Shown here: one piece after another, positions 24,862 to 62,750 of the stretch
How the letters are laid out: every line of letters begins with the position of its first letter
Position numbering within the stretch: the stretch's first letter is position 1
Origin: Symbiodinium sp. CCMP2592
Lineage: Eukaryota; Sar; Dinophyceae; Suessiales; Symbiodiniaceae
Reading direction: 5' to 3'
Assembly (NCBI GenBank): GCA_905221615.1
Contig: CAJNDT010005880.1
Location: 674,501-738,500 of the forward strand
Length of the DNA: 64,000 nt
The notes under the pieces: model-generated
The model's database searches: none
What the model was told of the DNA's origin: nothing
What the model saw: only the letters and a program-made list of their open reading frames with translations
Made by a program: the position numbers and the translations under genes

Positions 24862-25041
24862 CCCAGAGACTCCACTATCCCGGAATATTCCTTAAATTAT
24901 AATAGGATCCCTAATATGATTTAAGGAATATACCTAAGTTAAGGGATATTGGAGTCTCCTTAACCCTATACCCTATAGATCCCTTAAAGGAACCCTAACC
25001 CTAGCTATTCCTTAATTAAGGGATATTGGAGTCTCTGGGTA
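24862..25041. mobile_element. MITE family B (B5) split by a telomere-like insert
   Basis: CCCAGAGACTCCACTATCCC starts the element and GGAGTCTCTGGG ends it at 25041. TA lies on both outer sides. The right arm is present twice, separated by the insert at 24959-25015. Confidence 0.85.
24959..25015 (-). repeat. telomere-like insert with 20-bp flanking duplication
   Basis: CTTAACCCTATACCCTATAG, ATCCCTTAAAGGAACCC and TAACCCTAG, flanked by TTAAGGGATATTGGAGTCTC at 24939-24958 and 25016-25035. Confidence 0.8.
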
Positions 25042-25125
25042 GGGTTTTTGGTTTTCAGGCTTTGGGGGTTCCGGGGCTTTGGGGAGTCCGAGGCTTGGGG
25101 TTTCGGGCTTGCGGATTGTCGGTTT

Positions 25126-25455
25126 TAGGGTTTAGGGTTTAGGGTGGTTCCTTTAAAGGGATCTTTAGGGTTTAGGGGGGTTCCTTTAAAGGGATCTCTA
25201 GGGGTTTAGGGTTTAGGGTTTAAGTTTTTTTTAGGGTTTAGGGTTTAGGGTTTCGGCGATCAGGGCTTTGGGTTCAGTTTAGGGTTCTCAGAACCCCAAA
25301 CCCTAAACCTAGTTTAGGGCTGAGGCTTCAGGGTTTAGGGTTTAGGGTTTAGGGTTTAGGGTTTAGGGTTTGGGGTTTAGGGTTTGGGGTTTAGGGTTTA
25401 GGGTTTAGGGTTTAGGGTTTAGGGTTTGGGGTTTAGGGTTTAGGGTTTAGGGTTT
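25126..25455 (+). repeat. telomere-like array, G-strand
   Basis: TTTAGGG arrays, including about fifteen near-perfect heptamers at 25335-25455. The unit GGTTCCTTTAAAGGGATCT(T/C)TAGGG is present twice at 25142-25203. Confidence 0.95.
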
Positions 25456-25880
25456 ACCGTGGAACGGTAGGGGGCGAAGGGTCGGGAGTTCAGGGCCTAA
25501 GAGCTCACGTGTGTCGTTGAAAATGACTAGCAATGATATCCCATTGTAGTCTCTGTGTAATGACCAGCTTAAAAGTTGATACTTCCACATTTTATGAAAC
25601 AGTTTAAGCCCTTTTGAACACGCTCCTCAATTCAAAAAACTTACACGACACTACAAAAAGACAGACCCAACCAACAAGACAGAGTTCAGACTCCCCCAAA
25701 CCCCTAAACCCTAAAACCTAAACCCCTAAACCCCCAACCTGAACTCCAGCTCTGAAAGGCCGGCGTTCAGAGCACCAACAATGAGGTCTTGACGAAGCTT
25801 CTCCAGGACGGCCGCCCTTTCTTTGCCCACAGAAGCAGTCAAAGACAGCCAAATATCCTTGTAGGGGCTCATCAGGTATC
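25456..25880. other. unique sequence, no gene recognised
   Basis: The 61-residue minus ORF at 25718-25903 is unconvincing and runs into element A8. Confidence 0.4.
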
Positions 25881-25885
25881 AACTT

Positions 25886-26008
25886 GGTTAAAGGCTCATG
25901 CAACTTAGTAAGTAAGGTTACAAGTAGGTGACATGTAGGAGAACACCACTTCGGGGACTAATAACCCCGATTCTAACCTACTTACTAAGTCCCATGATCC
26001 TTTAAGTA
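25886..26008 (-). mobile_element. MITE family A (A8)
   Basis: GTTAAAGGCTCATGCAACTT to GTCCCATGATCCTTTAAGTA. The left outer arm has drifted. Confidence 0.85.
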
Positions 26009-26162
26009 TCTACAGTATAGATACATAAGACCCTTAATAGGAGCCTTCTGTTAAAGACTCTTACTGTATGGGGGAAGTACCCAACCTCAACCACCGAGGT
26101 TCCGAACAGAACCCAAAACCCCAAACCCTGAAAAAGGAACACTATTCCGTTTTGTGTATACA

Positions 26163-26232
26163 TTATATATATATATATATATATAGATGTGTGTGTTTAT
26201 ATATACGTATATATATATATATATATATACCC
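26163..26232. repeat. TA dinucleotide tract
   Basis: (TA)n with a GATGTGTGTG interruption; self-complementary and able to extrude a cruciform. The Tyr/Ile-rich ORFs on both strands are by-products. Confidence 0.95.
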
Positions 26233-26589
26233 CTTTCGGTTCTGCAGCCCCCGAGCCCGACCCGTAAGGATTGACGAAACACTTGGCAGACTGGAGCGCC
26301 TGCCGCAAAGGGGTCTATAGGGACATAGGGATGGGGATCCTCCTAAACGGGGCTATGGGGATACATAGGAATTATAGGGTTCCTTCAATGGGTTCTGTAG
26401 GCATATAAAGGGATTAGAGGGTTCCTGAAAAGGGTTTAGGGGTTTGGGGTGTTGGGTTGTTCTCGGGAGCTCGGTGGGGGCCGCAGGACAACAACATAAA
26501 GCTGGACGAATGGCCCCATGGATCCTTCGCAGACCTATTGACAGAGGTCTACGAGACGCAGGCATCCGGGAGTTCAGGGAAACTACCCA

Positions 26590-26693
26590 AACCTTCCAAA
26601 ATCCCTTACTTAAGAATATTCCTTAAAGACCATTAGGGATCCTACTATACTTTTGAGGTATTCCTTCATTAAGGGGTTTTGGAGGCTCTGGGC
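26590..26693. mobile_element. MITE family B, diverged (B6)
   Basis: CCAAAATCCCTTACTTAAGA, core TTAGGGATCCTACTATA, right arm TTTTGGAGGCTCTGGG. Confidence 0.75.
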
Positions 26694-26744
26694 ACGGGTT
26701 GGGCTTCGCAGTATGCGTCCAAAGCAGCAGGATGCTTGTTGCAA

Positions 26745-26968
26745 CCCAGACCCCCGGGAGGATCCAAAAAGTAGATCCCTTCATAATAGGTTCTTTTTAA
26801 GGGTTCCTTCAAGGGCCCCTTTAAGGGATCTATAGGGTTTTAGGGTTTAGGGTTGAAGGCTTAGGGGAGGAATCCAAAAAGTAGATCCCTTAATGGGGTT
26901 TCCTATAAAGTAGCCTTAGTAGTATAGGGCCCCAAATTTGGGGATCTACTTTCTAGATCGGGTCTGGG
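26745..26968 (+). mobile_element. MITE family H (H2) split by a telomere-like insert
   Basis: CCCAGACCCCCGGGAGGATCC left end and GGGTCTGGG right end. The left inner arm occurs twice, at 26756-26781 and 26865-26891, with one extra A in the second. The insert lies between. Confidence 0.85.
26782..26864 (+). repeat. telomere-like insert with 26-bp flanking duplication
   Basis: AAGGGTTCCTTCAAGGG, CCCCTTTAAGGGATCTATAG and GGTTTTAGGGTTTAGGGTT. The flanking copies share AATCC/GATCC then AAAAAGTAGATCCCTT. Confidence 0.8.
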
Positions 26969-26969
26969 A

Positions 26970-27255
26970 ATAACTTCAAGGGAACGTAATTTCCCAGAAT
27001 CCCACCATCTATTGGATGGCAGAGCACGTGCTCACTGCTTGTTATGTTGGGTTTCGGATTTGGATCTTTGAACGCTTGCTTGTTCAGAACAGCGTTTACA
27101 GTTTTCGGGTGCAGGATTCGAGGTTCGGGGTTTAAAGGCTTTAAGTTCAGGATTTACTTTGATTCCTGGTTCCTCTTGACAGAGGCAGTGAGTCTCAAGT
27201 TCTCCGATTGAAGGCCGCTGTGAAACCTCCAACTTGGCAACTTGGGTTCAGGGTT
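26970..27255. other. unique sequence, no gene recognised
   Basis: The 66-residue minus ORF (27032-27232) has scattered charged residues but no known pattern. Confidence 0.35.
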
Positions 27256-27262
27256 TGGGGTT

Positions 27263-27378
27263 TACTTCCAGGCTCATGGGACTTAGTAGGTAAGGTCATA
27301 TGTAGGCCATACTTAGGGTAACCCAACTTAGGGGACTCATCGCCCCTACTATAGCCTACTTACTAAGTCCCATGATCC
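27263..27378 (-). mobile_element. MITE family A, slightly shortened (A9)
   Basis: TACTTCCAGGCTCATGGGAC, core CCCAACTTAGGGGACTCAT. The outer right arm is lost after CCCATGATCC. Confidence 0.8.
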
Positions 27379-27442
27379 GCTCTCTCTTGGGAAGCAGAAA
27401 GCAGCCTGCATGCTGGAGTCTTTGCATCCCTGCAGACCACCA

Positions 27443-27580
27443 TACTTAAAGGATCATGGGACTTAGTAAGTAGGTTATAATTGGCGTTATAAGTCCCCTA
27501 AGTGGGGTTCCCTAAGTGGGGTTATCCTAATTATAACCTACTTATAACCTTACCTACTAAGTCCCATGAGCCTTTAAGTA
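27443..27580 (+). mobile_element. MITE family A (A10)
   Basis: TACTTAAAGGATCATGGGAC to GTCCCATGAGCCTTTAAGTA with a perfect TA boundary. The core CCCTAAGTGGGGTT is duplicated in tandem. Confidence 0.9.
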
Positions 27581-27853
27581 GCCGGAGCTACGTCCTGCAC
27601 TGTTTATTGTTTCTAGGGTCCTTCCACATTCTGTATGACAGCATGCCCTACAAAAGCCAGTTGGGCCCTGGACCGTAAATTCTGATGAAAACTACACCTG
27701 CAGTTCTAATTATCTTCAAACCCTAAGTCCTACATCCTGATGAGCCCTAAACCCTAAACCCTACGCCCGAGGAGTGTCGGGATTGGGACAGAGCATCGTC
27801 TCCGGCACGATGGGCTTCACACTTTCTGAACAAAGGACCTGAACCCCAAAACC

Positions 27854-27977
27854 TACCTAGAGGCTCATGGGACTTAGTAAGTAAGCTTATAAGCAGGTTA
27901 TGATTAGGATAACCCCACTTAGGGGACTTATAACCCCAATTTTAACCTACTTACTAAGTCCCATGATCCTTTAAGTA
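27854..27977 (-). mobile_element. MITE family A (A11), followed by an L element
   Basis: TACCTAGAGGCTCATGGGAC to CCCATGATCCTTTAAGTA. Element L4 starts at its right edge. The same pairing occurs in reverse at 32950-33142. Confidence 0.9.
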
Positions 27978-28050
27978 CCTCTTTTAGCACTTATATCAGG
28001 AAATCATGTTCAGGAGCCCGGGGGAGGTAGGTTTCTTAGGGTCCAGGTAG
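27978..28050 (+). mobile_element. MITE family L (L4), joined to A11
   Basis: CCTCTTTTAGCACTTATATC, AGGAAATCATGTTCAGGAGC and GGTAGGTTTCTTAGGGTCC. It is a diverged L copy whose junction to A is shared with 32950-33022. Confidence 0.65.
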
Positions 28051-28059
28051 GGTTCAAAG

Positions 28060-28680
28060 AGCCCAGGCGCCTGGCCGCCTGAGTTGGGCTTCGTAGGGTT
28101 TGTATAAGTTGTTTGGGGGGTTGAAGGTTGTTGTGTATGTACCTGGTGTGTGTGTGTGTGAGGGGTCGTGTCTTACATTGGGAGTCTCAACAAGTAGAAT
28201 CGGGTCTTGACGTTTTGCTGCTGTAGATATATGAAGGAGCCCTGAGAAATCAATGTCTCTTTTTTCCATGCCCCTGTTGGGGTGTGTGGGTTTTCGACTT
28301 CAGCTGGAGTAGCAGGGATCCTCAATAGTTACCACCTGTCTGAAGCTACAATAAACCACAGTCTGAAAGCTAATGACTAGCCCTAAGATTCCCGAACTCG
28401 AAACCCCAAAACCCTAAACCCTAAACTTCGCATCAGGCATCCACACTGCGAGTCATCAAGGGCGAGCTAATACGACACCTCCGCGTTATCAAGGCACCTC
28501 TGACATACCGTGTTTTGCAGCGGTTGTATACGGGTTTTTGCAATGGTCTAATGATTAGACTCTAATGATTCTAATGCAGAAGGTTTATGATTCAAGGTGG
28601 GTGAAGGTGATGGCTGGGCGAAGAACGCTTTTCGGGTGCCGTCCGCAAGTGTGTGGGTTCAGGCTTTTGTTTTTTCGCAA
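28060..28680. other. no gene recognised
   Basis: The ORF at 28054-28269 (minus) includes a (GT)n-encoded stretch. A tandem TCTAATGATT lies near 28548-28572. No recognisable protein. Confidence 0.4.
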
Positions 28681-28743
28681 ATGCTCATAGGACTTGGTAA
28701 GGTAGGTTGATTCAAAAGCTAACAGTCCCATGAGCCCTGAAGT
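28679..28743. mobile_element. MITE family A relic, internally deleted (A12)
   Basis: GCTCATAGGACTTGGTAAG faces CAGTCCCATGAGCCCTGAAGTA with little between. Confidence 0.6.
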
Positions 28744-28984
28744 AGGGTTGCGGAATACCAACAGGATAGACAGGCTCTCAGGGTTGGGGAAAGGGTGGAG
28801 GTTCAGCAGCGTGCTTTACTAAGAAAGAGACCGCACCAATCAATATGACCATGTGTTTACAGCAACAGAAAAGATCCAACACCCGGGTCAAATTTGCAAG
28901 GCCCCAAAATCGAACCCTGGAACCTTAAACCCTAAACCTTATGCTTTTTAAGACATGATCTAAGTATACCCGTCACACACTAAA

Positions 28985-29079
28985 CTTAGGGGTACTTAGA
29001 AATATTTTGTTTTGGTTATTATAATCCCTAAGAAACAGCTAAAATTACAATTTTTGCTAGGGTTCTAAGTTCAGTATAG
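28985..29079 (+). mobile_element. MITE family K (K2)
   Basis: CTTAGGGGTACTTAGAAATA, AATCCCTAAGAAACAGCTAA and TTGCTAGGGTTCTAAGTTC, as in K1. Confidence 0.8.
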
Positions 29080-29161
29080 TAAACCGCAAACCCTGAATCT
29101 TAAACCCGGCCTCCCCAAGGCCGATTTTTCTTCACTACCCCGAAGGGTCAAATGTACCGAC

Positions 29162-29222
29162 ATGGGTGGTTGTCAAAATTAGGGTTCCAAAAAGGAACTA
29201 TAATTTTGACAACCGCCCACAT
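29162..29222. mobile_element. minimal family D hairpin (D3, 60 bp)
   Basis: ATGGGTGGTTGTCAAAATTA, then GGGTTCC/GGAACTA, then TAATTTTGACAACCGCCCA. Only the two arms remain; the usual 40-bp core is absent. Confidence 0.9.
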
Positions 29223-29356
29223 AGTAGAATGTAGAGTTTCCATATTCGGAATTGCTATTATGACTTAGGGAAGTGTCCCCCATAACAGTACATAGGACCC
29301 TTTGGGTATAGCGTGCCCCACGAGCCTGCTCTCAGTATTTAGGACGCTACAACATG

Positions 29357-29462
29357 TGTGGGAGTTTCCGAAAATAGAGCACCCTAGTGTAGTACCCTAA
29401 ATGGTGGGATCCTTAGTATACGGACCGCAAAATAAGGTACCCCTAATTTCGGAAGCTCCCGT
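29357..29462 (-). mobile_element. MITE family E (E1)
   Basis: TGGGAGTTTCCGAAAATAG to CTAATTTCGGAAGCTCCC, with GTGGGATCCTTAGTATA at the centre. Confidence 0.85.
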
Positions 29463-29569
29463 ATCTCTCTTTGGAAGGTCTGGCTTGTCACGGAGATCCT
29501 GGGTGTCACCCACCTTCTGGTCACCAAGAGCAAGGACTACGACTGTAGAAGTTTCAAAGTATGCCTGAA

Positions 29570-29655
29570 CTCCAAGTAACCTACCTTTTCGAGGACATAT
29601 ATAAAGAAATCATATTAGGGAACCCTAAAAAGTTAGGTTCCTTAGGGTCCAGGTG
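29570..29655 (+). mobile_element. MITE family L (L1)
   Basis: GTAACCTACCTTTTCGAGGA, ATATAAAGAAATCATATTAG and GGTTCCTTAGGGTCCAGGT. Copies with the same ends lie at 49270 and 52080. Confidence 0.8.
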
Positions 29656-29669
29656 AGCAATAGGAATTT

Positions 29670-29828
29670 TCGTTGTCGTCCTCCTCGTCGCAGTCGTAGT
29701 CGTAGTAGTCATCGTCGTGCTCGTACTCGTAGTCAGAGTCCTCGTTCTCGTCCTTGTAATCACCGTCGTCGCCGCTGTCCTCGTCGTAGTGAAAGTAGGA
29801 GTAGGAGTAGGAAGAGTATAATAGTATA
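29670..29828 (-). repeat. GTC/GTA trinucleotide-rich tract
   Basis: CGTCGT, GTAGTC and AGGAGTA triplets. The minus-strand Thr-rich ORF (29581-29841) is probably produced by this tract plus the adjoining L element. Confidence 0.75.
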
Positions 29829-29979
29829 AGTATAATTGCAATCAGTTGTGGGTCCGATGGGTCTTCGTTTTGATTACAGATGCTGAATCCCTAAACGCAG
29901 CCCTAAACCCTGGAATCGTGTAACAGCACTTACAGAACCTGAAGTTTAGGGTGGACACTAGGTTTGGCAGCCACATCCT

Positions 29980-30450
29980 ACAGAATCCCTAATGCCCGCC
30001 CTAAACCTTAAAACCCTAAAGCCCCAAAGCCCTAAACCCTAACGCCTTAAGCCCTAAACAGCGGAGCCCTTGGTATAACCGTCCTAAGGCGGACGCCGAC
30101 TCATGAGCCCCCGCACAGCACGCAAGCCTAAACCGCCTCTCTAAAGCTTGTAAAAAGTCCTTTTTGGAACCTCGGTTAAGGTGTAATTAGGGTTTAGGGT
30201 TTAATTCGAGTGTATAGGGTTTAAGGTCTAATTAGGGTGTAGGGTTTAGGGTGCAAAAACGGCGTAGGGTTCAGGGTTTAGGAAACATCTTGTAGGCATC
30301 CTTATGGCCTCCATGCAGAAATTCCTAAGGCCTAAGCCCGAAACCGCAGCCCTAAACCTTAAACCCTAAACTTGAAACCCGAAACCCTAAACCCTAAGCC
30401 TAAACCCCAAACCCTAAACCCTAAACCCCAATCCCTAAACCCTAGCACTT
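29980..30450 (-). repeat. degenerate telomere-like sequence, mainly C-strand
   Basis: CCCTAAACC, CCTTAAACC and CCCGAAACC runs at 29996-30060 and 30335-30450, with a G-strand patch TTTAGGG at 30187-30280. Confidence 0.8.
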
Positions 30451-30536
30451 TCTTTAAAAGCCCTGAAGTTCCAGGACCGGCCTTTGTGTATGTCACTGGA
30501 GTCGCCACCTCGGAGGAACAAAACTCTGCTTTCAAT

Positions 30537-30755
30537 CGGTTTAGGGTTTAGGGATTCCTTTAAGGGTTTAGGGTTTAGGGTTTCTTTAAGGGTTTGTGGT
30601 TCCTTTAAGGGTTGAGGGTTTAGGGTTGAGGGTTTAGGGTTTAGGGTTGAGGGTTTAGGGTTTAGGGTTGAGGGTTTAGGGTTTAGGGGTTAGGGTTGAG
30701 GGTTTAGGGTTTAGGGGTTAGGGTTGAGGGTTTAGGTGTTAGGGTTGAGGGTTTG
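30537..30755 (+). repeat. GGGTTGAGGGTTTAGGGTTTA array upstream of C4
   Basis: TTTAGGG with regular TTGAGGG variants. The same two-variant pattern precedes C6 (46830) and C8 (50586). Confidence 0.9.
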
Positions 30756-30859
30756 CCCAGTAGTACCCTTATTCCCTTTTTGTAGTCCTAGGTTCCTTAT
30801 AAAGTTACCCAATACCAGAAAGGGAGCCCTTTTTATTCCTAGGTTACTGGGCATCCTAG
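30754..30859 (+). mobile_element. MITE family C (C4), left end clipped
   Basis: Starts at GCCCAGTAGTACCC directly in the array, lacking CTAGGAT. The right end GGGCATCCTAG is intact. Confidence 0.85.
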
Positions 30860-31210
30860 TAATGGGTTCCTTAACAGAAGGGATCGAAAAGGGTTCTGGA
30901 AGCGATGTACAGTGTGGGGTTCCTAAAAGGGATCCTTAATGGGTTTTCTTAAAGGGGTCGATAAGGATCTAGAAGGGATCCATAGGGTTCAGGGTTTTTG
31001 AGTTTTAGGGTTGAGGGCATTTAGTGTTTTAGTGCTGGACGGCTTCAGGGTTAAGGTAAACCCTAACCCCTAAACCCTAAGCCCTAAAGCCTAAACCCGA
31101 AGCCTTCAAGCCTAAACCCTAAGCCCTAGACCCCAAACCCTGAGCCGCAGACCCTAAACCCTACACCCAAAGCCTTGTTGTCCGAAACGCCGAATCCCTA
31201 AACCCTAATA

Positions 31211-31312
31211 AGGTGGTTGTCAAAATTGGGGTCCCTCTTTGGGTGCGTATTATAATACGGCACCTTATATTTAGGGTACCCAAAAAGGGACCATAATCTT
31301 GACAACCACCCA
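31211..31312 (+). mobile_element. MITE family D (D4)
   Basis: GGTGGTTGTCAAAATTGGGG to ATAATCTTGACAACCACCC. The core is typical (TTATAATACGGCACC). Confidence 0.85.
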
Positions 31313-31354
31313 GCCCACGAGTCGCCGACCGAAGTGAAACCTGTAGTATCACTA

Positions 31355-31500
31355 TCATAGGCTCCCTTAGGGGGGTAGAGGGGGGGGGGGGGGGTTGGGG
31401 GGCCTTAATGCCACTAGTTAGTAAGGACCAAACAAGGCAGGAAGTATAATCCCCTCCTCCCCTCCCCCTTCCCTCCTACCCCCCTCAGGGTCCCTATGAG
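31355..31500. mobile_element. MITE-like family Q (Q1)
   Basis: TCATAGGCTCCCTTAGGGGG and its inverse CCCTCAGGGTCCCTATGA. It has G-rich and C-rich inner arms and a central ACTAGTTAGTAAGGACC. Copies at 38022 and 63313. Confidence 0.75.
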
Positions 31501-33142: not shown

Positions 33143-33337
33143 ACGACCCTTAATCCTACAAGCCGCGTCTCTGAATGTCAGTAACCATATTCCTCAGGGT
33201 TTCTCCTGATAACTACAGTATAAAATACCCGAAACTACCCCGAAAACTCTGAGGCGTGGAATGACGTGGGAACAGGCTTTGGATCAGGCGCTGTCCATTC
33301 GTTTGGGCCTGGAGGCCGGATTTCATGACAGAAGGAT

Positions 33338-33552
33338 ACTTAAAGGATCATGGGACTTAGTAAGTAAGGGCTTAGGGTTCCCTTTAAGGGTACTATAGGG
33401 CTCTATAACAAGGGTTTAGGGTTTAGGGTCTACTTAAAGGATCATGGGACTTAGTAAGTAGGGTTATAAGTAGGTTATAATTAGGATAACCTCACTTAGG
33501 GGACTTATAACCCCCGTTATAACCCACTTACTAAGTCCCATGATTCTAAGTA
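33338..33552 (-). mobile_element. MITE family A (A14/A15) split by a telomere-like insert
   Basis: The 30-bp left arm starting TACTTAAAGGATCATGGGAC is present identically at 33338-33367 and 33431-33460. The rest of the element (to 33552) follows only the second copy. Confidence 0.9.
33368..33430 (+). repeat. telomere-like insert with 30-bp perfect flanking duplication
   Basis: AGGGCTTAGGGTTCCCTTTA, AGGGTACTATAGGGCTCTAT and GGGTTTAGGGTTTAGGGTC. A clearly related insert precedes A2 at 11106-11165. Confidence 0.85.
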
Positions 33553-33690: not shown

Positions 33691-33866
33691 ACCCAGAGAG
33701 CCCAATACTCCTACTCTAATGTGAAGCCCCTTACCATTTAAGGTATATTCCTTGATTAAAGGGTCTTAAACCCTGTCAAACCTTGAAAGGAAACCTTACA
33801 TGAGCCCTTAAAGGAACTCTACGTTAAGGTATATTCCTTAATTCAAAGGTCTGGAGCTCTCTGGGA
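33691..33866. mobile_element. MITE family B (B7) split by a telomere-like insert
   Basis: CCCAGAGAGCCCAATACTCC left end, GAGCTCTCTGGGA right end. TTAAGGTATATTCCTT(G/A)ATT is present at about 33738 and 33824. Confidence 0.7.
33766..33823 (-). repeat. insert with about 28-bp imperfect flanking duplication
   Basis: TTAAACCCTGTCAAACCTTG, AAAGGAAACC and GCCCTTAAAGGAACTC are degenerate CCCTAAA plus CCTTAAAGGAAC units between the duplicated B arm. Confidence 0.65.
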
Positions 33867-34466: not shown

Positions 34467-34610
34467 TTAGGGTCCTAGAGCTTGAACCCTGAAACCTAAA
34501 TGGGAGTTTCCGAAAATTAGGGATACCTTATTTGGGGGTCCTCATAATAAGGATCCGACTATTTAGGGTACTATATTACGGTCCTAGAGCTTGAACCCTG
34601 AAACCTAAAT
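34467..34610 (+). mobile_element. right-truncated E element (E2) between 31-bp direct repeats
   Basis: GGTCCTAGAGCTTGAACCC and GAAACCTAAAT occur before (34471-34501) and after (34580-34610) a partial E element whose left arm TGGGAGTTTCCGAAAATTAG is intact and right arm missing. Confidence 0.75.
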
Positions 34611-41834: not shown

Positions 41835-42027
41835 AGCCTAAGCCACCCTAAACCCAAAACTGCTCATGCCCTGACCCTAACCCTTAGCCTAAACCCTAGA
41901 TCCTAAGCCCCTAGCAGCACACTTAGGAACCCTTATAGTGGCCACTATAATTTGATAACAATTCTTATAGAGCTTTCATCACTCTTCATTGCTAACAACT
42001 CTTTTATTGTAGAGCTTTTACGGAACC

Positions 42028-42234
42028 CTACGGTTGATGATATAAATCCTGAGATAAATCCTGCCCATAATAAGGAGTATACCATACTCCCCATAGTTTA
42101 GGGTCCTTAAGGTAATGCAGGATTTATATCATAACCCTAAACCGTAAAACCCTATCGATCCCTTAAAGGAGCCCCTTAAAGGTACCCTTATAGATCCCTT
42201 TAAACCCAGGATTTTTCTCATCAACCGTAAACCC
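42028..42234 (+). mobile_element. MITE family G (G3) split by a telomere-like insert
   Basis: CTACGGTTGATGATATAAATCC at the left. The right arm is given twice: CAGGATTTATATCAT (about 42118) and CAGGATTTTTCTCATCAACCG (42207). Confidence 0.8.
42133..42206 (-). repeat. telomere-like insert with about 15-bp imperfect flanking duplication
   Basis: AACCCTAAACCGTAAAACCC, TATCGATCCCTTAAAGGAGC and TATAGATCCCTTTAAACC. The flanking copies differ at two of 15 positions. Confidence 0.75.
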
Positions 42235-43454: not shown

Positions 43455-43640
43455 TACTTAGAGGATCATGGGATTTAGTAAGTAGGTTATAACTGGGGTT
43501 ATAAGTCCCCTAAGTGGGGTTACCCTAATTATAACCTACTTATAACCTTACTTACTAAGTCCCATGAGCCTTCAAGTAGACCCTAAACCCTAAACCCCTC
43601 GTATAGAACCCCCTATAGTGCCCTTTAAGGGAACCCTAAC
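43455..43640 (+). mobile_element. MITE family A plus 62-bp telomere-like tail (A19)
   Basis: Full A element (43455-43578), then ACCCTAAACCCTAAACCCCT...AGAACCCCCTATAGTGCCC to about 43640. The same element-plus-tail unit occurs at 62438-62629, but here no second A arm follows. Confidence 0.85.
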
Positions 43641-44914: not shown

Positions 44915-45062
44915 ATAGCCAGTAATACTATCCCGAGGGTTTAGGGTTCGGGGCTTACGGTTTAGGGAGTAACACTATCTCTAGTTTAGGGAGTACTACT
45001 ATCCCCGGGGGTCCTCATTGTAGTTATGCCTGTTCTAATTTTAAAGTCTCGTACAATAAGCC
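44915..45062 (+). mobile_element. family N-like element with repeated arm and telomere-like inserts (N11)
   Basis: AGTAATACTATCCCGAGGG (44921), AGTAACACTATCTCTAG (44968) and AGTACTACTATCCCCGGGGG (44992) are three copies of the same arm. TTTAGGGTTCGGGG and TTTAGGG lie between them. CCTCATTGTAGTTATG and TCTAATTTTAAAG follow. Confidence 0.6.
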
Positions 45063-45939: not shown

Positions 45940-46163
45940 CACCTGGAGGGTCGGGGGACTTAGTAACTGGTTATTTGAGGGACTTATAAGTACCACAACC
46001 CCAATTAGGGTCCCTTTTAAGGTACCTAGAAGTCTACTTACTACCTACTTACTAAGTCCCTGAACCCTAAACCCTAAACCCTATAGCACCCCTATAGAGC
46101 CCTTTAAAGGAACCCTTATAATCCCCTTTAAAGGAGCCCCTAAGTCCCCCGACCCTCCAAGTA
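45940..46163. mobile_element. family A variant (A20) split by a telomere-like insert
   Basis: ACCTGGAGGGTCGGGGGACT and its inverse CCCCCGACCCTCCAAGTA, like A1. CTAAGTCCC is present at 46052-46060 and 46140-46148. Confidence 0.8.
46061..46139 (-). repeat. telomere-like insert with 9-bp flanking duplication
   Basis: TGAACCCTAAACCCTAAACC, CTATAGAGCCCTTTAAAGGA and CCCTTTAAAGGAGCCCC. Shortest duplication in the set. Confidence 0.7.
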
Positions 46164-46807: not shown

Positions 46808-47008
46808 TAGTTGGGTAACAATTTAGGGTTTAGGGTTTAGGGTTGAGGGTTTAGGGGTTAGGGTTGAGGGTTTAGGGTTTAGGATGCCCAGTAGTACCCT
46901 TATTCCCTTTTTGTAGTCCTAGGTTCCTTATAAAGTTACCCAATACCAAAAAGAGAGGCCTTTTTATTCTTAGGTTACTGGGTATCCTAGTAGTTGGGTA
47001 ACAATTTA
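46808..47008 (+). repeat. 18-bp direct repeat around a telomere-like array plus element C6
   Basis: TAGTTGGGTAACAATTTA occurs at 46808-46825 and 46991-47008. Between lie a TTTAGGG/TTGAGGG array (46826-46879) and C6. Confidence 0.85.
46880..46990 (+). mobile_element. MITE family C (C6)
   Basis: TAGGATGCCCAGTAGTACCC to GGTATCCTAG. It begins in a TTTAGGG array exactly as C4 and C8 do. Confidence 0.9.
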
Positions 47009-54502: not shown

Positions 54503-54705
54503 CTAGGATGCCCAGTAGTACCCTTTTTGTAGTCCTAGGTTCCTTATAAAGTTACCCAATACCAACAAGAGAGCCCTTTTTATTCTTAGGTTACTGTTAC
54601 TGGGTATCCTAGTTCCCTTATAGATCCCTAAACCCTAAACCCTAAACCCTAAAGGATCCCTTAAAGGAGCCCTTTAAGGAACCCTACTGTTACTGGGTAT
54701 CCTAG
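54503..54705 (+). mobile_element. MITE family C (C9) split by a telomere-like insert
   Basis: CTAGGATGCCCAGTAGTACC left. The right arm ACTGTTACTGGGTATCCTAG is present identically at 54593-54612 and 54686-54705. Confidence 0.9.
54613..54685 (-). repeat. telomere-like insert with 20-bp perfect flanking duplication
   Basis: TTCCCTTATAGATCCC, four CCCTAAA heptamers, then GGATCCCTTAAAGGAGCCC and TTTAAGGAACCCT. Confidence 0.85.
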
Positions 54706-56240: not shown

Positions 56241-56243
56241 CAA

Positions 56244-56336
56244 TGTAGGAACAATTATAATTAGAATAGGGTTTTTGGGGGGTTCCTTATTATGATTCCC
56301 CAAACCCAGTTCTAAATATTAAGGCCCTACAGTAAA
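56244..56336 (-). mobile_element. MITE family N (N7)
   Basis: TGTAGGAACAATTATAATTAG and its partner TTCTAAATATTAAGGCCCTACA. Core GGGTTCCTTATTATGA. Confidence 0.75.
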
Positions 56337-56419
56337 GCGCTCTTTGACCTGAGGCCCCGAAACCTAAGCCCGAAATCCTGCTGGCACAACCCAAACCTCA
56401 AACCTCAAAACCCCAAAGC

Positions 56420-56836
56420 TTGAGCCCTAAACCCCGCACGGCAAACCCCAAAGCCCCAACTCCAAGCCCCGGAAATCTTGGATTAGAGAACTTGACTGCA
56501 GGGCTGGGGGCAACACAGGCTGACATTCGGCATTTGTTTAGGCCTTTGGTTCATCCAAAGCGTCATGTCAACGACGCTCAAGCGTCGCTACTGCTTACAA
56601 GCACAGTAAATACCAACATGTACTCGAATCCTAGATACCCATGCTTTTTTTTCAATCAGATTCGGCGTGCTCCGATTCAAAACGGCAGCCGAAACAGCAA
56701 CGAGCATGCTAAGGATCATTCTCACCTGAAGTTCAGTCGCTTCTTTGGTTTGCGGGGGACGAAAGCTGCAAACCAATCACCCGAAGCCATTCTGCAATCA
56801 GCTGCCAGAGGTCGGTCTTCAGTTGTGTTTACATGA
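56420..56836 (+). CDS. hypothetical ORF upstream of RCC1 copy 2
   Basis: 138 residues. The first 25 come from Pro/Lys-coding CCCAAA DNA. The remainder (GLGATQADIRHLFRPLVHPK, NTNMYSNPRYPCFFFNQIRR, HSHLKFSRFFGLRGTKAANQ) has balanced composition and no known motif. It ends 88 bp before the RCC1 start on the same strand, so it may be a separate small gene or an upstream exon. Confidence 0.3.
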   Translation: MSPKPRTANPKAPTPSPGNLGLENLTAGLGATQADIRHLFRPLVHPKRHVNDAQASLLLTSTVNTNMYSNPRYPCFFFNQIRRAPIQNGSRNSNEHAKDHSHLKFSRFFGLRGTKAANQSPEAILQSAARGRSSVVFT

Positions 56837-56923
56837 CGACAGAGAAGCATTCACTGAAGAAACACTGCTTGTGCCGCCAGACACAACACAGCCGCGGCAC
56901 TAGGCATTGTATTTGGCCATGGA

Positions 56924-58441
56924 TTGATCCGGAGCGGAGTCTCCATCATGTCACTGACCTTTGAGGTAAGCCTCATAAGCGGCAAGACGGTGTCACTGCA
57001 GGCACACGAGGATGACTCCGTGGAATCGCTGAGGGTGCGTGCACAGAGAGCCCTGGGAGTTGGCAGAGGCCGACTCATGGACTCCGCTGGCAGCATTCTT
57101 GACGGAGCAGCACCGCTAAAGAGAGCCAGGTGCAAGGAGCCGGTAACGCTGCAGATTCGAAGGGTGGATATATGTTGCGGAAAGCAGGCCTTTGCTGCGA
57201 TCCTGGGAGATGGCTCCGTCGTAAGTTGGGGGGCTGCAGGTGGTGACAGCAGTACTGTGCAAGATCATCTGAAAAATGTGCAGCAGATTCAAGCAACTGA
57301 TGGGGCCTTTGCTGCGATCCTGGGAGACGGCTCCGTCGTGACCTGGGGCAATGCTGGCTACGGTGATGACAGCAGTGCCGTGCAAGATCAGCTGAAGAAT
57401 GTGCAGCAGATTCAAGCAACTCAGAGGGCCTTTGCTGCGATTCTGGGGGATGGCTCCGTCGTGACCTGGGGCCATGCTGGCTACGGTGGTAACAACAGTG
57501 CTGCGCGAGATCATCTGAAAAATGTGCAGCACATTCAAGCAACTTTGTGCGCCTTTGCTGCGATCCTCGGGGACGGCTCCGTCGTGACCTGGGGCAATGC
57601 TAGCTACGGTGGTGACAGCAGTGCTGTGCAAGATCAGCTGAAGAATGTGCAGCAGATTCAATCATCTCAGAGTGCCTTTGCTGCGGTCCTGGCAGATGGC
57701 TCCGTGGTGACCTGGGGCAGTGCTGGCCGCGGCGGTGACAGCAGTGCTGTGCGAGATCAGCTGAAGAATGTGCGACAGATTAAAGCAACTTCGCTCGCCT
57801 TTGCTGCGATCCTGGGGAACGGCTCCATCGTGAGCTGGGGCGTTGCTGCTTCCGGTGGTGACAGCAGTGCCGTGCAAGATCATCTGAAGAATGTGCAGCA
57901 GATTCAAGCGTCTCGGTGGTCCTTTGCTGCGATCCTTGCTGATGGCTCTGTCGTGACCTGGGGCGTTGCTGGTTCTGGTTCTAGTGGAGACAGCAGTGCT
58001 GTTCAAGATCATCTGAAAAATGTGCAACAGATTCAGGCAACCGCTTTTGCCTTTGCGGTGATCCTGGGGGATGGCTCCGTCGTGACCTGGGGTAATGCCA
58101 TGTTCGGTGGTGACAGCAGCGCTGTGCAAGATCATCTGAAAAATGTGCAGCAGATTCAAGCAACTGATGGGGCCTTTGCTGCGATCCTGGGAGACGGCTC
58201 CGTCGTGACCTGGGGCAATGCTGGCTACGGTGATGACAGCAGTGCCGTGCAAGATCAGCTGAAGAATGTGCAGCAGATTCAAGCAACTCAGAGGGCCTTT
58301 GCTGCGATTCTGGGGGATGGCTCCGTGGTGACCTGGGGCAATGCTGGCTACGGTGGTGACAGCAGTGCTATGCAAGGTCACTTACAGAATTCGCAGCAGA
58401 TTAAAGCAACTGCACGAGCCTTTTGTCGCGATCCTACCTGA
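56924..58441 (+). CDS. ubiquitin-like / RCC1-repeat protein, copy 2 (frameshifted 3' end)
   Basis: 505-residue ORF, paralogue of the gene at 6288. Residues 9-82 form the ubiquitin-like segment (FEVSLISGKTVSLQ, DSVESLRVRAQRAL, RLMDSAGSIL). Ten RCC1-type units follow (core FAAILGDGSVVTWG, linker DSSAVQDQLKNVQQIQAT). A two-unit block (about 57264-57490) recurs nearly unchanged at 58117-58350, a sign of recent duplication or conversion. At 58421-58424 the run CCTTTTG has one T more than expected for CCTTTG; the corrected frame would continue FVAILPDGSVVSW. The present stop is therefore an accident and the gene may be a young pseudogene or have a shortened product. Two in-frame ATGs (56924, 56948) correspond to those of copy 1. 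Propeller-type scaffold by family; partner unknown. Confidence 0.8.
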   Translation: MIRSGVSIMSLTFEVSLISGKTVSLQAHEDDSVESLRVRAQRALGVGRGRLMDSAGSILDGAAPLKRARCKEPVTLQIRRVDICCGKQAFAAILGDGSVVSWGAAGGDSSTVQDHLKNVQQIQATDGAFAAILGDGSVVTWGNAGYGDDSSAVQDQLKNVQQIQATQRAFAAILGDGSVVTWGHAGYGGNNSAARDHLKNVQHIQATLCAFAAILGDGSVVTWGNASYGGDSSAVQDQLKNVQQIQSSQSAFAAVLADGSVVTWGSAGRGGDSSAVRDQLKNVRQIKATSLAFAAILGNGSIVSWGVAASGGDSSAVQDHLKNVQQIQASRWSFAAILADGSVVTWGVAGSGSSGDSSAVQDHLKNVQQIQATAFAFAVILGDGSVVTWGNAMFGGDSSAVQDHLKNVQQIQATDGAFAAILGDGSVVTWGNAGYGDDSSAVQDQLKNVQQIQATQRAFAAILGDGSVVTWGNAGYGGDSSAMQGHLQNSQQIKATARAFCRDPT

Positions 58442-58618
58442 TGGCTCTGTCGTGAGCTGGGTTTGCTGTGATCCTTACCTTAATCTACCGAACCCTACTT
58501 TTTTGTAGGTTCATATTACAAACCCTAATATGGGATTTATAGGGACCCTACAAAAAAGTAGGCTTTGGTAGGTTAAGGTAGTCATGGCTCCGTCTTCATC
58601 TGAGTCAATGCTTACGGA
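58442..58618 (+). pseudogene. decayed 3' continuation of RCC1 copy 2, split by a MITE
   Basis: GATGGCTCTGTCGTGAGCTGGG after the frameshift, then a shortened unit GTTTGCTGTGATCCT to 58475. Element I4 follows, then CATGGCTCCGTCTTCATCTG and GTCAATGCTTACGG (58583-58615), which align with the next part of an RCC1 unit. Confidence 0.75.
58476..58580 (+). mobile_element. MITE family I (I4) inside the RCC1 tail, TA duplication
   Basis: TACCTTAATCTACCGAACCC to GGCTTTGGTAGGTTAAGGTA. Removing the element and one TA leaves GATCCTTAGTCATGGCTCC, the same length as GATCCTTGGTGATGGCTC(T) in copy 1. Confidence 0.9.
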
Positions 58619-58640
58619 TTCTAGGGACCCTTCAGGCTAC

Positions 58641-58749
58641 ATATGGGTGGTTGTCAAAATTATGGTCACGTTTTGGTTACCCTAAATAATAGGTGCTGTA
58701 TTCCAATCAGGACCAAAAATAGGGATCATAATTTCGACAACCACCCATG
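58641..58749 (-). mobile_element. MITE family D (D7)
   Basis: ATGGGTGGTTGTCAAAATTA to ATAATTTCGACAACCACCCAT. The outer GGCTACAT/ATGTAGCC also pairs. Confidence 0.9.
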
Positions 58750-59150
58750 TAGCCATATAGGATATATGGTAATATAGTATAGTAGGTATATAGGGATCCC
58801 AGGGTTAAGGGCCCGTGGTTTCAACCTTAGACATGTGCTCGTAAGATGCATGGAGCTTGTTGTTGAACATGGTCTGGGATGGCTAGGATTTTCAATGTAA
58901 GCTCAATTTCCAGCGATGACCCTGTGTTCAAAGAATTCTGTGTTCAGGATCTTTTTTGACTGTGCCTAGAAAGCGCGCGCCCTTGGCTATGTCTTCGAAC
59001 TCGACGACGGATCCTTCCACTTTCTGGTAGTTACGTTGGAGTCTCATTGAAGGGGTTTGAGATTTTAGCTTGTTGCGAGTGCTGAGCCAACAAGCCATTA
59101 AAAAGCCATACATAAAATAATCATAAACCCCTTATCCCGGAACCCCGAAT
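58750..59150. other. no gene recognised
   Basis: Unique sequence. The 61-residue minus ORF (58928-59113) has no known pattern. Confidence 0.35.
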
Positions 59151-59345
59151 TTGACTTTAAACCCTAAACCCTGAACCTACACTCAACACCCTAAACCCAA
59201 AACCCTAAATACCCTACACCCAAAACCCTTAACCTGCAATTATCTGCAACCTAAAACCCTAAACCCTTAAACCCTAAAACCCTTATAGATCCCTTGAAAG
59301 GAACCCCTATAGATCCCTTTAAAGGAACCCTAAACCCTAACTCCT
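59150..59345 (-). repeat. telomere-like C-strand sequence with CCCTTTAAAGGAACC units
   Basis: CCCTAAACCCTGAACC units, then TATAGATCCCTTGAAAGGAACC and TATAGATCCCTTTAAAGGAACC in tandem. Confidence 0.85.
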
Positions 59346-59439
59346 CAAGCACCGAGTTCTCAAAAACCCCTGCGGGAGGACTGCACGGCTTCTTTCCCTG
59401 AGCTGCAGCTTTTCATGGCGCGGAGCCCAGCAGCATTTT

Positions 59440-59680
59440 GGGGTTTCGGGATTCTTTTCAAGGGTTCCTTTTAAGGGTTCCTTTAAAGGGTTCCTTTTAA
59501 AGGGTTCCTTTAAGGGATCTTCAGGGTTTGGGGTTTAGGGTTTTAGGGTTTAGGGTCTAGGGTTAGGGTTTACGGTTTGGGGTTTAGGGTTTAGGGTTCG
59601 TTCAAGGGCTCCCTGAAAGGGTTCCGTTAAGAAAGCGGTTCGGGTTCCTGTAAAAGGGATCTATCAGGGTTCAGATAAGG
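59440..59680 (+). repeat. GGTTCCTTTTAAGGG units and telomere-like array
   Basis: Four tandem GGGTTCCTTTTAAAG units (59463-59520), then TTTAGGG heptamers to about 59600. Together they are the G-strand equivalent of the block at 59150. Confidence 0.85.
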
Positions 59681-59801
59681 TTGGTGCAGCGTCCAGCGTG
59701 AAGGTTCTTAAAAAAAGGCCGGGGTCCATGTAAGGCTTTCTACAGCGGGTTCTATTGGAGTTTAGGATTCGGGTTTAGAGTGTAGGTTTCAGGGTTAAGG
59801 G

Positions 59802-59922
59802 CCTAGCTAGGTTCCTGAATAGTACGCTGTTGCCCTTTTTGCTTTAGGGTCCCCTTATAAAAACCGACCAGTAGGAAAAAGGGTAACCTTGTCATTAAGG
59901 GGCTACTCAGGAACCTAGTTAG
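59802..59922 (+). mobile_element. MITE family S (S1)
   Basis: CTAGCTAGGTTCCTGAATAG and its inverse CTACTCAGGAACCTAGTTAG enclose GTTGCCCTTTTT/AAAAAGGGTAACC. It abuts C10. Confidence 0.8.
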
Positions 59923-59923
59923 A

Positions 59924-60035
59924 CTAGGATGCCCAGTAGTACCCTTATTCCCTTTTTGTAGTCCTAGGTTCCTTATAAAGTTACCCAATACCAAAAAGAG
60001 AGGCCTTTTTATTCTTAGGTTATTGGGTATCCTAG
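59924..60035 (+). mobile_element. MITE family C (C10)
   Basis: Full-length CTAGGATGCCC to GGTATCCTAG. Flanks (TAGA/TCAA) do not match. Confidence 0.9.
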
Positions 60036-60261
60036 TCAAGGCAATATCCTTTAAGACAAGGTCCCTTCCTTCGGAGTTTCTTAACAAGGTTTAAGTGAAG
60101 GGTTTTGGAGGGGTTGCTATTTGAGGGGTTTTAACCGTCGGCTCGAAACACTAAGCGTGATTACTTTCGGATTTTTGGGGCAAGGTTCTCCAGCAACTGT
60201 ACGGAGAACCCTATTAGACCCCTAAGCCCCTAAACCCATAAACCCTAAATCCCCAAACCTC

Positions 60262-60350
60262 TCCTAAAGCTCTTGTGCCCTTTCTGTCTTGCTGAGCCTC
60301 CTTATCAAAACCTGACAGCAAGGGCCAAAAGTCCGCTGATTAAGGAGTAG
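60262..60350 (+). mobile_element. family S fragment
   Basis: TGCCCTTTCTGTCTTGCTGAG, CTTATCAAAACCTGACAGC and GATTAAGGAGTAGCC resemble the inner part of S1. Confidence 0.4.
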
Positions 60351-60448
60351 CCAGAGACTCCACTATACGTTACAGTATAGTAGGGTCCTTAATATGATTA
60401 AAAGAACATACCTCATACCTCAGTTAAGGGATATGGGAGTCTCTGGGT
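60350..60448. mobile_element. MITE family B (B15)
   Basis: CCAGAGACTCCACTATACG to GGATATGGGAGTCTCTGGG. Left inner arm decayed. Confidence 0.8.
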
Positions 60449-60449
60449 A

Positions 60450-61255
60450 CTGGATAGCCCTGAGATGAGGGTTTGCTGTTTGATTGACTTTAGCATGTTT
60501 AGGTCCAGAGCCTTCAAAACCTTTTAGTAAAGTAAACAAGATGCCTACTGCTTCAGTTATAGACAGTTATAGAGGGGTCCTCGATGCGATTAAAGGTGGG
60601 TTCCCCAATCCTCAATGAAGAGATCCTGGACTCTATGGGGTGATGAGGGCTTTAGGATTTCGGCAGTAGCGCTACGGGCCAAAACACGCATGGACAGCTG
60701 CATATCGCAGAACGCTTCCAACAGAGAAATAGCTCCTTTGCAAAATTCATAAACCCTGATCCGTAAGTTTTTAGCATACGTTTCGGTGGTTTCAGTTTCA
60801 GATCCTGTAAATGAACCCTTATCACAACTTATATAGTTATGGGAACCGTTTTAGGAACCCTTAAAGGAGCCCCTCGAGAGCAGATTCTTTGAGGGGCCTA
60901 CTTGAACGAAGTCCCCCCCCGGATCCGTAGAAGCCGCTTAGGGCTTACCTGTAGCCGACAAAACCTACCTTTCTAGGGTTCCTTATTATGTTTATATGCG
61001 TATTTGTTATATAGCCCCTTAAAGCGGTGAGTTGTTTGTGCCACAGGTAGGGTTCACGGTTTTAGGTTCAGGGCCTAGGGTTCAGGGACATGCTTATCGC
61101 AATAGCTTCGACGCATAGGGCTCAATCCTGTAGTCTGCTATAAGTTCCTAAACTCAAGCCTAAACTCTAAACCTAGCCAGAACGCCCCAACGACGAAACC
61201 TCCAAAGCTTGCTTGTAAAGACCGTAATTAAATAGAAAACCCTGAAGCCCTAAAA
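60450..61255. other. no gene recognised
   Basis: A decayed B-like end (CAATCCTCAATGAAGAGATCC near 60608) and GGAACCCTTAAAGGAGCCCC at 60842. Otherwise unique. Confidence 0.4.
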
Positions 61256-61260
61256 CTCCT

Positions 61261-61361
61261 CTCAGTAGCTGAGCGGATACACTTTAGAAAATTTGGGATA
61301 ATATTATCCACTATAACCCTAAAGTGCACACTTTTGGGGGGCGTATGAACTCAGAAACTAA
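61261..61361 (+). mobile_element. MITE family V (V2)
   Basis: CTCAGTAGCTGAGCGGATAC to GCGTATGAACTCAGAAACTAAG. Confidence 0.75.
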
Positions 61362-61368
61362 GTCCTAG

Positions 61369-61485
61369 ATGGGTGGTTGTCAAAATTAGGTTCCCTTTTC
61401 GGGTGCCCTAAATATTAGGTGCCGTATTATATTATTAAGGACCACAAAAAGAGACTCTAATTTTGACACCCCCCCCCCCGCCCCC
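61369..61485 (+). mobile_element. MITE family D (D8), right tip replaced by poly-C
   Basis: ATGGGTGGTTGTCAAAATTA left; right TCTAATTTTGACACC followed by C10, where ACAACCACCCAT is expected. Confidence 0.8.
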
Positions 61486-61543
61486 AATGTCGCCTCCTTA
61501 ACCCTAAACCCTATAGATCCCTTACAGGAGCCCTAAAGGAACC

Positions 61544-61637
61544 CTACGGTTGATGATATAAATCCTGCATTACCCATAATAAGGAATATACCATAAGGGT
61601 CCTTAAGGTAAAGCAGGATTTAAAACATCAACCGTAG
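61544..61637 (+). mobile_element. MITE family G, ATAAATCC variant (G5)
   Basis: CTACGGTTGATGATATAAATCC to GGATTTAAAACATCAACCGTAG. Inserted next to TATAGATCCC/GGAACCC units. Confidence 0.9.
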
Positions 61638-61783
61638 GAACCATTCCTTAATTAAGGGATATTGGTTAGACGCTGCCCCCGCCCTGTAAGAGTGGTATAA
61701 TAGGACTATAATAGGGCCCAAATATAATCCTTATAGTCACTATTACAGGGTGTGGGCAGCTTCTAAGATATTGGAGTTTCTGG
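61638..61783. mobile_element. family B right half (B17) containing a nested M
   Basis: ATTCCTTAATTAAGGGATATTGG, then M2, then GATATTGGAGTTTCTGGG. The left half is absent. Confidence 0.8.
61666..61765. mobile_element. MITE family M (M2) nested in B17, 8-bp target duplication
   Basis: TTAGACGCTGCCCCCGCCC to GTGTGGGCAGCTTCTAA. GATATTGG lies on both sides. An 8-bp duplication is typical of hAT-type elements. Confidence 0.9.
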
Positions 61784-61879
61784 GTTCTTCCCCAATCGCA
61801 AAGACCCAGATCTCCTGAAAGTCATCCGGAAGGACTTCTCGGTCATCTTGCTGTGTCGAGATAGATCCTGGATTTAGGA

Positions 61880-61990
61880 TATGGGAGTTTCCGAAAATAG
61901 GGAGGGGACCCTAATATAGCACCCTAAACCGTAGTATCCTTCTTATTAAGGTAAATAGGAGTATCCTTCATATAAGGACCCCAAAATAAT
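61880..61990 (-). mobile_element. MITE family E (E8), right arm lost
   Basis: ATGGGAGTTTCCGAAAATAG left, duplicated GTATCCTTC core. Interrupted by J4 at CCCCAAAATAAT. Confidence 0.8.
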
Positions 61991-62122
61991 CCAAGGGTAA
62001 AAGGAGGGACCCTCAATAAGGGCCCCTAGGTATATACCCTTAGTATAGCCATCAGAAACCCATTACATAGCCCATTATAGGGTAGGGGTCCCATTAAGGG
62101 TCCCTCCTTGTCCCCTTGGATT
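61991..62122 (-). mobile_element. MITE family J (J4) nested at the end of E8
   Basis: CCAAGGGTAAAAGGAGGGAC to GGGTCCCTCCTTGTCCCCTTGG, reverse to J1-J3. Confidence 0.9.
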
Positions 62123-62145
62123 CTCTGTCATCCTGTTGTGTCCAT

Positions 62146-62337
62146 ATGGGAGTTTCCGAAAATTAGGGGTTACCTAAGGGTTCCTTCCAAGGGTTACTAC
62201 AAGGGTTCCTTTCAAAGGCTCTATAAGGGTCTAGAGTTTCCGAAAATTAGGGATGCCTAATCTTGGGGTGCTTAAAATAAGGATCCTACTATTTAAGGTA
62301 CTATATTAGGGTCCACTCTTTTCGGAAACTCCCATAT
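62146..62337 (+). mobile_element. MITE family E (E9) split by a telomere-like insert
   Basis: GAGTTTCCGAAAATTAGGG, then (GT/A)T(A/G)CCTAA, is present at about 62150-62177 and 62234-62260. The full right half to CCCAT follows the second. Confidence 0.85.
62178..62233 (+). repeat. insert with about 27-bp flanking duplication
   Basis: GGGTTCCTTCCAAGGGTTAC, TACAAGGGTTCCTTTCAAAG and GCTCTATAAGGGTCTA. This insert has the second unit type but no exact TTTAGGG. Confidence 0.8.
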
Positions 62338-62437
62338 CGGGGTCGTGTGAACCCGGTCGGGTTCCTTTCCCAGGAACAGCTTGCGAAACCCTAGAACCTC
62401 TAGAACAGGGGCCGCTTGCGGACACCGCATCAAGCTC

Positions 62438-62565
62438 TACTTAAAGGATCATGGGACTTAGGTAAGTAGGTTATAATTGGGGTTATAAATCCCTTAAGTA
62501 GGGTTATCTTAAATATAATCTACTTGTAGTAACCTTACTTACTAAGTCCCATGAGCCTTTAAGTA
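62438..62565 (+). mobile_element. MITE family A (A25)
   Basis: TACTTAAAGGATCATGGGAC to GTCCCATGAGCCTTTAAGTA. The right arm recurs at 62630-62658 after an insert. Confidence 0.9.
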
Positions 62566-62566
62566 G

Positions 62567-62629
62567 ACCCTAAACCCTAAACCCCTCTTGTAGAACCCCC
62601 TATAGTGCCGTTTAAGGGAACCCTAAGCC
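62567..62629 (-). repeat. telomere-like insert with 29-bp perfect flanking duplication
   Basis: ACCCTAAACCCTAAACCCCT, CTTGTAGAACCCCCTATAGT and GCCGTTTAAGGGAACCC. The flanking copies (62538-62566, 62630-62658) include the A arm CCCATGAGCCTTTAAGTAG. The same tail follows A19. Confidence 0.85.
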
Positions 62630-62750
62630 CTTACTAAGTCCCATGAGCCTTTAAGTAGTGCTCAAGGCCACGGAGAACGAAGCCACCTCCAGCGGCAGAA
62701 GCGCAGCTTGGAATCAAGCGACTTAGGACATGGAGACCTGACGGCTTGGG

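Follow-up and report, generated by a model that had tools for sequence, protein, structure and literature searches.

The DNA analysed here is a stretch of 64,000 nucleotides from the dinoflagellate Symbiodinium sp. CCMP2592 (assembly GCA_905221615.1, contig CAJNDT010005880.1, forward-strand positions 674,501 to 738,500), which we call the window; it is part of contig C5018 in the genome that we searched (1.098 Gb, 5383 contigs). The window holds two open reading frames (ORFs) with RCC1-like repeats (6288-7901 and 56924-58441, with 123-bp internal tandem repeats) and copies of miniature inverted-repeat transposable elements (MITEs), from which we seeded the families G, K, A, P, Q, R and S, with elements of 100-126 bp. 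In it, TTTAGGG occurs 4.2 times and CCCTAAA 3.0 times per kb; in a 200-kb sample from the same genome the corresponding densities are 1.2 and 1.6. TTTAGGG is reported as the telomere unit of dinoflagellates (PMC11453091). Our subject is a class of composite elements in which such telomere-like DNA is joined to MITEs. A composite nearly always consists of a whole MITE, a patch of about 40-110 bp, usually telomere-like, at one end, and a second copy of the terminal 13-34 bp of that MITE.

Composite elements in the window

A first-pass annotation, made from the letters alone, had described about a dozen MITEs interrupted by telomere-like inserts, with the sequence at the insertion point present on both sides, and had read them as repaired staggered double-strand breaks. 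On re-alignment, eight of its nine pairs of coordinates proved to be as described, the ninth (46052/46140) giving merely 9 bp (Table 1). In these window cases a complete MITE has the insert directly at one of its termini, and the MITE's own terminal sequence is what is duplicated. The insert is absent from most copies of the seeded families, and insert-free copies are present in the same families that form composites. The exact unit GGTTCCTTTAAGGGATCTATA, which accompanies the telomere-like words, occurs twice, both times on the minus strand, the remaining copies being variants.

Table 1. Composite elements and related features of the window, with re-aligned end duplications
Feature	Coordinates	Strand	Anatomy	Repeat pair on re-alignment
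Additional G composite, outside the earlier list	11088..11291	+	copied end 11088-11107, insert, MITE 11168-11291	
A-family composite	24863..25039	+	MITE ~24863-24958, insert 24959-25015, second end copy 25016-25035	24939/25016: 20 bp exact; reaches 30 with 3 mismatches
Q-family composite	26745..26972	+	copied end 26745-26784, insert ~26785-26864, MITE from ~26865	26756/26865: 26 bp with one indel (20 exact)
G-family composite	33337..33552	+	copied end 33337-33366, insert 33367-33430, MITE 33431-33552	33338/33431: 30 bp exact
A-like composite	33736..33865	.	29-bp repeat flanking unit-type insert	33738/33824: 29 bp, 3 mismatches
R-family composite	42024..42229	+	MITE 42024-42132, insert 42133-42206, copied end 42207-42229	42118/42207: 15 bp, 2 mismatches
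G MITE ending in the same module	43455..43639	-	second end copy: none seen	
G-like MITE end with telomere-like insert	46022..46150	.	9 bp duplicated, weak	46052/46140: 9 bp only, weak taken alone
Variant	46808..47008	+	18-bp repeat around TTTAGGG array and whole K MITE (46880-46991)	
K-family composite	54503..54705	+	MITE 54503-54612, insert 54613-54684, copied end 54685-54705	54593/54686: 21 bp exact
Exception	61496..61636	+	unit-type module at R MITE end, polarity reversed	
P-family composite	62148..62335	+	copied end 62148-62175, insert, MITE ~62232-62335; target repeat ATAT	62150/62234: 19 bp exact
G-family composite	62438..62658	-	MITE 62438-62566, insert 62567-62629, copied end 62630-62658	62538/62630: 29 bp exact

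The dozen cases are not all independent, because those at 33338 and 62538 are a single G composite in two copies (33337..33552 and 62438..62658). Composites related to the R composite were found at three sampled loci (L024, L026 and L027). The region of the A composite around 24943 recurs on its own contig, at C5018:174758-174850, and is identical across the 80 bases compared. Repeats are also present at three places that had been listed as related cases, although they differ in kind from the composites: the one at 44921 is a loose triplication of about 14 bp around TTTAGGG words, in none of the seeded families, whereas those at 46808 and 62751 enclose a whole MITE, the second of them (62750-62960) being a 17-bp repeat of flanking DNA around a telomere-like or unit tract and a whole G MITE. 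Elsewhere in the window, a truncated P MITE lies between 31-bp exact direct repeats of flanking DNA with no telomere-like insert (34471-34610), and an 86-bp telomere-like tract lies between 15-bp direct repeats at no MITE end of a seeded family (2359-2474).

Preference for the ends of MITEs

For local counts we used 264 kb, comprising the window and 20 stretches of 10 kb each (200 kb including 2600 N) from five contigs matching the 54593 query, which makes the sample not strictly random. Scanning these 264 kb for direct repeats yielded 45 rows, where one order-1 Markov control yielded 0, an excess over chance, with the proviso that ordinary repeats make up many of the rows. Before counting, we removed rows that fell in dense repeats or in the two RCC1-like ORFs, a filter that also lost the true case at 33337. 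From 146 MITE copies, in a set of loci enriched for composites, an end repeat was obtained in 40 rows. When rows containing a split MITE were collected from the 264 kb, 30 of 35 were duplications at most 12 nt from a terminus, with four interior duplications and one interior case lacking a duplication; these figures count each palindromic element twice and include some neighbouring MITEs.

Genome-wide counts were made for K, P and A with exact end words required twice in direct order, a pattern by which mutated copies are missed. The right end of K is duplicated in 12 rows at gaps of 48-78 (four of which form one array) and in 47 rows at gaps of 79-109, and the left end in 17 rows at gaps of 48-78, these being the gaps covered. 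The P end is duplicated in 62 rows and the A end in 32, ten of the latter in two tandem arrays (7 and 3 rows). The reversed-pattern controls gave 0 rows in each of the K, P and A searches, and at gaps of 79-109 neither a duplicated K interior word nor K right ends placed tail to tail were found anywhere in the genome (0 rows each). As a measure of scale, a 25-base K interior word occurs at 3781 places, and the 76 exact K rows amount to about 2% of that number, mutated copies being missed in both.

Random internal breaks were rejected on the end clustering in the 264 kb and on the null count for the K interior word. Of the earlier picture of inserts interrupting MITEs, there remain the foreign filler, the duplicated target sequence and its absence from plain copies; the site is the end of a MITE and not a random internal point. 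Short tandem arrays of MITE fragments were also encountered (C3946:309320-309972, C5213:120380-120595, C5347:114672-115014 and C58:994738-995397), which look as if a partial duplication had seeded tandem amplification.

Content and polarity of the patches

We examined the K inserts in 69 of the 76 rows (60 fetched stretches, L002, L044 and the window; the other 7 rows belong to the right-end set with gaps of 79-109). The insert listing has 70 rows, one extra being contributed by L085, and L045-L047 were added for typing. Since single-linkage clustering fused most of the telomere-like inserts, types were defined on the K-proximal 45 nt, which gave 28 types at a threshold of 0.70 (9 at 0.60, 18 at 0.65, 32 at 0.75 and 38 at 0.80). 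The duplications measure 13-34 bp, the tandem cases L056, L083 and L100 excluded.

The same anatomy recurs with varied patches. Most K inserts are telomere-like, and some consist of fragments taken from other MITEs or from K: P pieces of 77, 74 and 29 bp lie in the K patches of L078, L079 and L073, a G piece of 35 bp in that of L070, and a K interior piece of 26 bp in L054, while one left-end K type carries a P terminus of 14-18 bp in 7 of 9 rows. As a set, the K inserts are not purely telomeric repeats, many being units or MITE pieces, and the earlier view of telomeric DNA as the defining ingredient is not supported, in view of those K inserts that are MITE or K pieces with the same duplication. 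Modules are also shared between families, that of 54593 occurring at Q MITE ends and at one G MITE end as well (L029-L042). At L040 this module bears 19 nt of a G terminus and enters a Q element over a shared GATCCT, and at L034 the module and end copy form four tandem units (by eye). The modules have a loose core and a polarity in common; an Rfam scan of the window gave no match, and BLAST with short words, comparing inserts with the MITE seeds, returned mainly noise.

The inserts lie on both genomic strands, as had been remarked on first inspection, but relative to the MITE they are mostly of one polarity, with the C-rich strand outward. At the 0.70 threshold, 17 K types are of C polarity, 5 of G and 6 of neither (p = 0.017); the bias is significant also at 0.75 (21:5) and 0.80 (27:5), and not significant at 0.60 (3:1) or 0.65 (8:4). 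Among 21 P inserts (20 of the 62 loci, picked for variety, plus the window copy), C words were found in 20, G words in none and neither in one, and the 32 A rows, judged by eye on 80 bases per row, comprise 17 of C type, one of G type, four others and ten in arrays. A strict polarity was nevertheless rejected, given the K exceptions L055, L067, L081, L084 and L087, and those of R at 61540 and L020:1934 and of A at C5141. The DNA outside the MITEs was scored at 203 reached ends of 113 copies, using ends with at least two telomere or unit words: the C-rich strand is favoured within the first 40 bp (10 vs 2) and weakly in excess at 40-80 bp (6 vs 3), and beyond 80 bp there is no preference for it (9:9, 14:27, 23:21 and 13:18 in successive outward intervals).

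Target duplications and apparent multiplication of composites

The ends of K read CTAGGAT and ATCCTAG, and plain K copies on the plus strand of the window are flanked by an exact 4-bp target duplication in 4 of 5 cases. For 57 K composites we compared the tetranucleotide preceding K with two possible partners. With at most one mismatch, it agrees with the tetranucleotide that follows the second end copy in 39 (permuted mean 4.8, maximum 13 in 2000), but with the first bases of the insert in just 7. Because the match is found outside the second end, we conclude that the patch and the copied end of K sit inside the target duplication; the window composite at 54503..54705 has the 4-bp repeat GCTC in that outer position. 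These outer repeats vary from locus to locus. The largest K types have 19, 9 and 8 rows with flanks that are unrelated by eye, and composites were therefore mobilised, so that some of the enlarged transposons appear to have multiplied. Many K types, on the other hand, are single rows, and such types therefore speak for repeated fresh formation, unless their relatives were missed.

Origin of the composites

Our best reading, to which we assign a probability of about 0.57, is that a transposon end which was cut, or at which replication stalled, was repaired by template switching, and that the element was then remobilised. A MITE end would be cut, perhaps by the element's own transposase, or replication would stall there, and one strand end would copy 13-34 nt of the MITE terminus. 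It would then switch template into other repeats, which may be telomere-like tracts, units of the CCCTTATAGATCCCTTTAAAGGAACCC type or pieces of other MITEs, and the switched strand would be joined to the MITE end, leaving MITE, patch and second end copy within the old target-site duplication. With the second copy as its outer end, the enlarged element could move and multiply together with its patch. We infer the cause of the break, the direction of synthesis, the polymerase, the role of microhomology and the use of the new outer end by a transposase. Telomerase is not needed for the patches.

Several results weigh against this reading. The preference for MITE ends is strong, not absolute, because a P interior word used as a control gave 30 rows, ten of them in two arrays; rows outside the arrays are mostly partial P repeats, while three distinct interior loci (4 rows) hold telomere-like filler (both by eye). 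Patches without duplication exist (43455, and telomere arrays at the left ends of K at 46880, 30754 and 50683), and such patches are uncounted by our patterns, which require a duplication. The cases at 46808 and 62751 duplicate flanking DNA rather than a MITE end, a variant for which the model gives no simple account. Sequence variants of the first end copy are present in the second in 8 cases, three of which come from one locus, and absent in 7, and a clear overlap at the switch point was seen in one case only (GATCCT in L040), that of L054 being about one base. The target repeats of P match with at most one mismatch in 14 of 17 cases against a permuted mean of 11.3, its targets being too alike to be informative, and the count of independent events changes markedly with the typing threshold.

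Among the alternatives, survivorship fares best, although we consider it unlikely: patches would land anywhere, and mainly those that duplicate an end would stay transposable or, in the case of K, spliceable. The composites are indeed multicopy, telomere-like patches do occur in P interiors, and K resembles an Introner carrying its 3' splice site (PMC9860276). Interior insertions would spare the ends, however, and yet interior duplications of K number 0 at gaps of 79-109, and the many K types with a single row indicate that amplification is not required for a type to be seen.

Considerably less probable is the original proposal of random staggered double-strand breaks with fill-in, in which telomerase adds or captures telomeric DNA as in mammalian interstitial telomeres. 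The long target duplications and the telomere-like filler on which it rests do exist, the polarity bias is present, and among interstitial telomeric loci of the horse, 3 of 66 have duplications and one insert contains telomerase-RNA sequence (PMC7215372). While the anatomy is consistent with break repair, the sites gather at MITE ends, near-identical patches occur in different families, some patches are non-telomeric MITE pieces, and telomerase would not be expected to write ATAGATCCC units. Telomerase as the only source was rejected, since patches include MITE pieces.

Comparably improbable is an end-extension cycle, in which the 3'-OH of a MITE or introner, exposed by transposase, would prime synthesis of the C strand on a telomeric G-strand template, either DNA or RNA, giving mostly one patch polarity, and the strand would return to the terminus, yielding composite introners that spread telomere-like DNA. 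We give equally little credence to the module being a small mobile element, SINE-like (short interspersed nuclear element) or of another type, which would insert at the ends of MITEs and duplicate 13-34 bp of target, for although variable duplication lengths recall target-primed insertion and the modules share their loose core and polarity, the K inserts are without constant ends or body, foreign MITE termini are carried along with modules, and pieces of other MITEs bear the same signature (L070, L073, L078 and L079). The typing of K inserts rejected the insertion of one and the same element with invariant ends, and the conserved body and 3' end of a retroposon (SINE or long interspersed nuclear element, LINE) spread by target-primed reverse transcription were not found among them.

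The K family and introners

K resembles the published Introner family 1 of Symbiodinium microadriaticum (PMC9860276) in its length (the paper's example measures 115 bp), its terminal inverted repeats (TIRs), its 4-bp target-site duplication (TSD), its AG end and its strand bias along contigs, a likeness in described features. In 66 of 67 neighbouring pairs on the same contig the K strands agree (first 100 of the 3781 places, by eye), and such strand blocks are what gene-oriented introners would produce, and would not be expected of a palindromic MITE inserting at random. The 54593 K copy and the nine further window copies matching it are all on the plus strand, as are both RCC1-like ORFs. The best match to the second ORF (56924-58441) comes from Symbiodinium microadriaticum, at 68% identity, and many others among the 120 matches listed are also from Symbiodinium. 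The composites exemplify a definite and countable way for tiny DNA transposons to grow, swap patches across families and scatter telomere-like DNA in a dinoflagellate genome. Should K be an introner, these events would also lengthen introns and duplicate the 3' splice region.

Comparison with known systems

Among the titles and abstract beginnings of open-licence papers, in the matches listed, no description of end-duplicated, patched MITEs in dinoflagellates was found. We compare the composites with related processes. Short interstitial telomeric insertions (PMC7215372) likewise combine a telomere-like insert with, now and then, a target duplication, which is rare there, whereas here MITE ends are affected and the filler is mixed. 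Tandem duplications produced by CST-Pol alpha at breaks with 3' overhangs (PMC8355091) are also short and arise via fill-in, and that work is not concerned with long filler; a role of CST-Pol alpha in the present composites is conjecture. In rice, filler of 1-123 bp accompanies 58 of 94 transposon excisions and is ascribed to repair (PMC4423477), so that foreign filler lies at transposon borders in both systems, but these are excision scars, while here the element stays and gains a duplicated end. Also related are the Pack-TIR or gap-filling and FoSTeST modes of capture known for DNA transposons (PMC8277862), in which a TIR element picks up unrelated DNA through template switching and is later remobilised with TSDs. 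As in Pack-TIR elements, a foreign patch lies between two K end copies inside the target duplication, and multicopy K types have differing target repeats, in keeping with remobilisation. The filler described there is in the interior of the element, whereas here it is at the end, is mostly telomere-like and is followed by a second end copy of 13-34 bp. The composites are best read as a variant of known transposon filler or gap-repair capture, from which the end copy distinguishes them.

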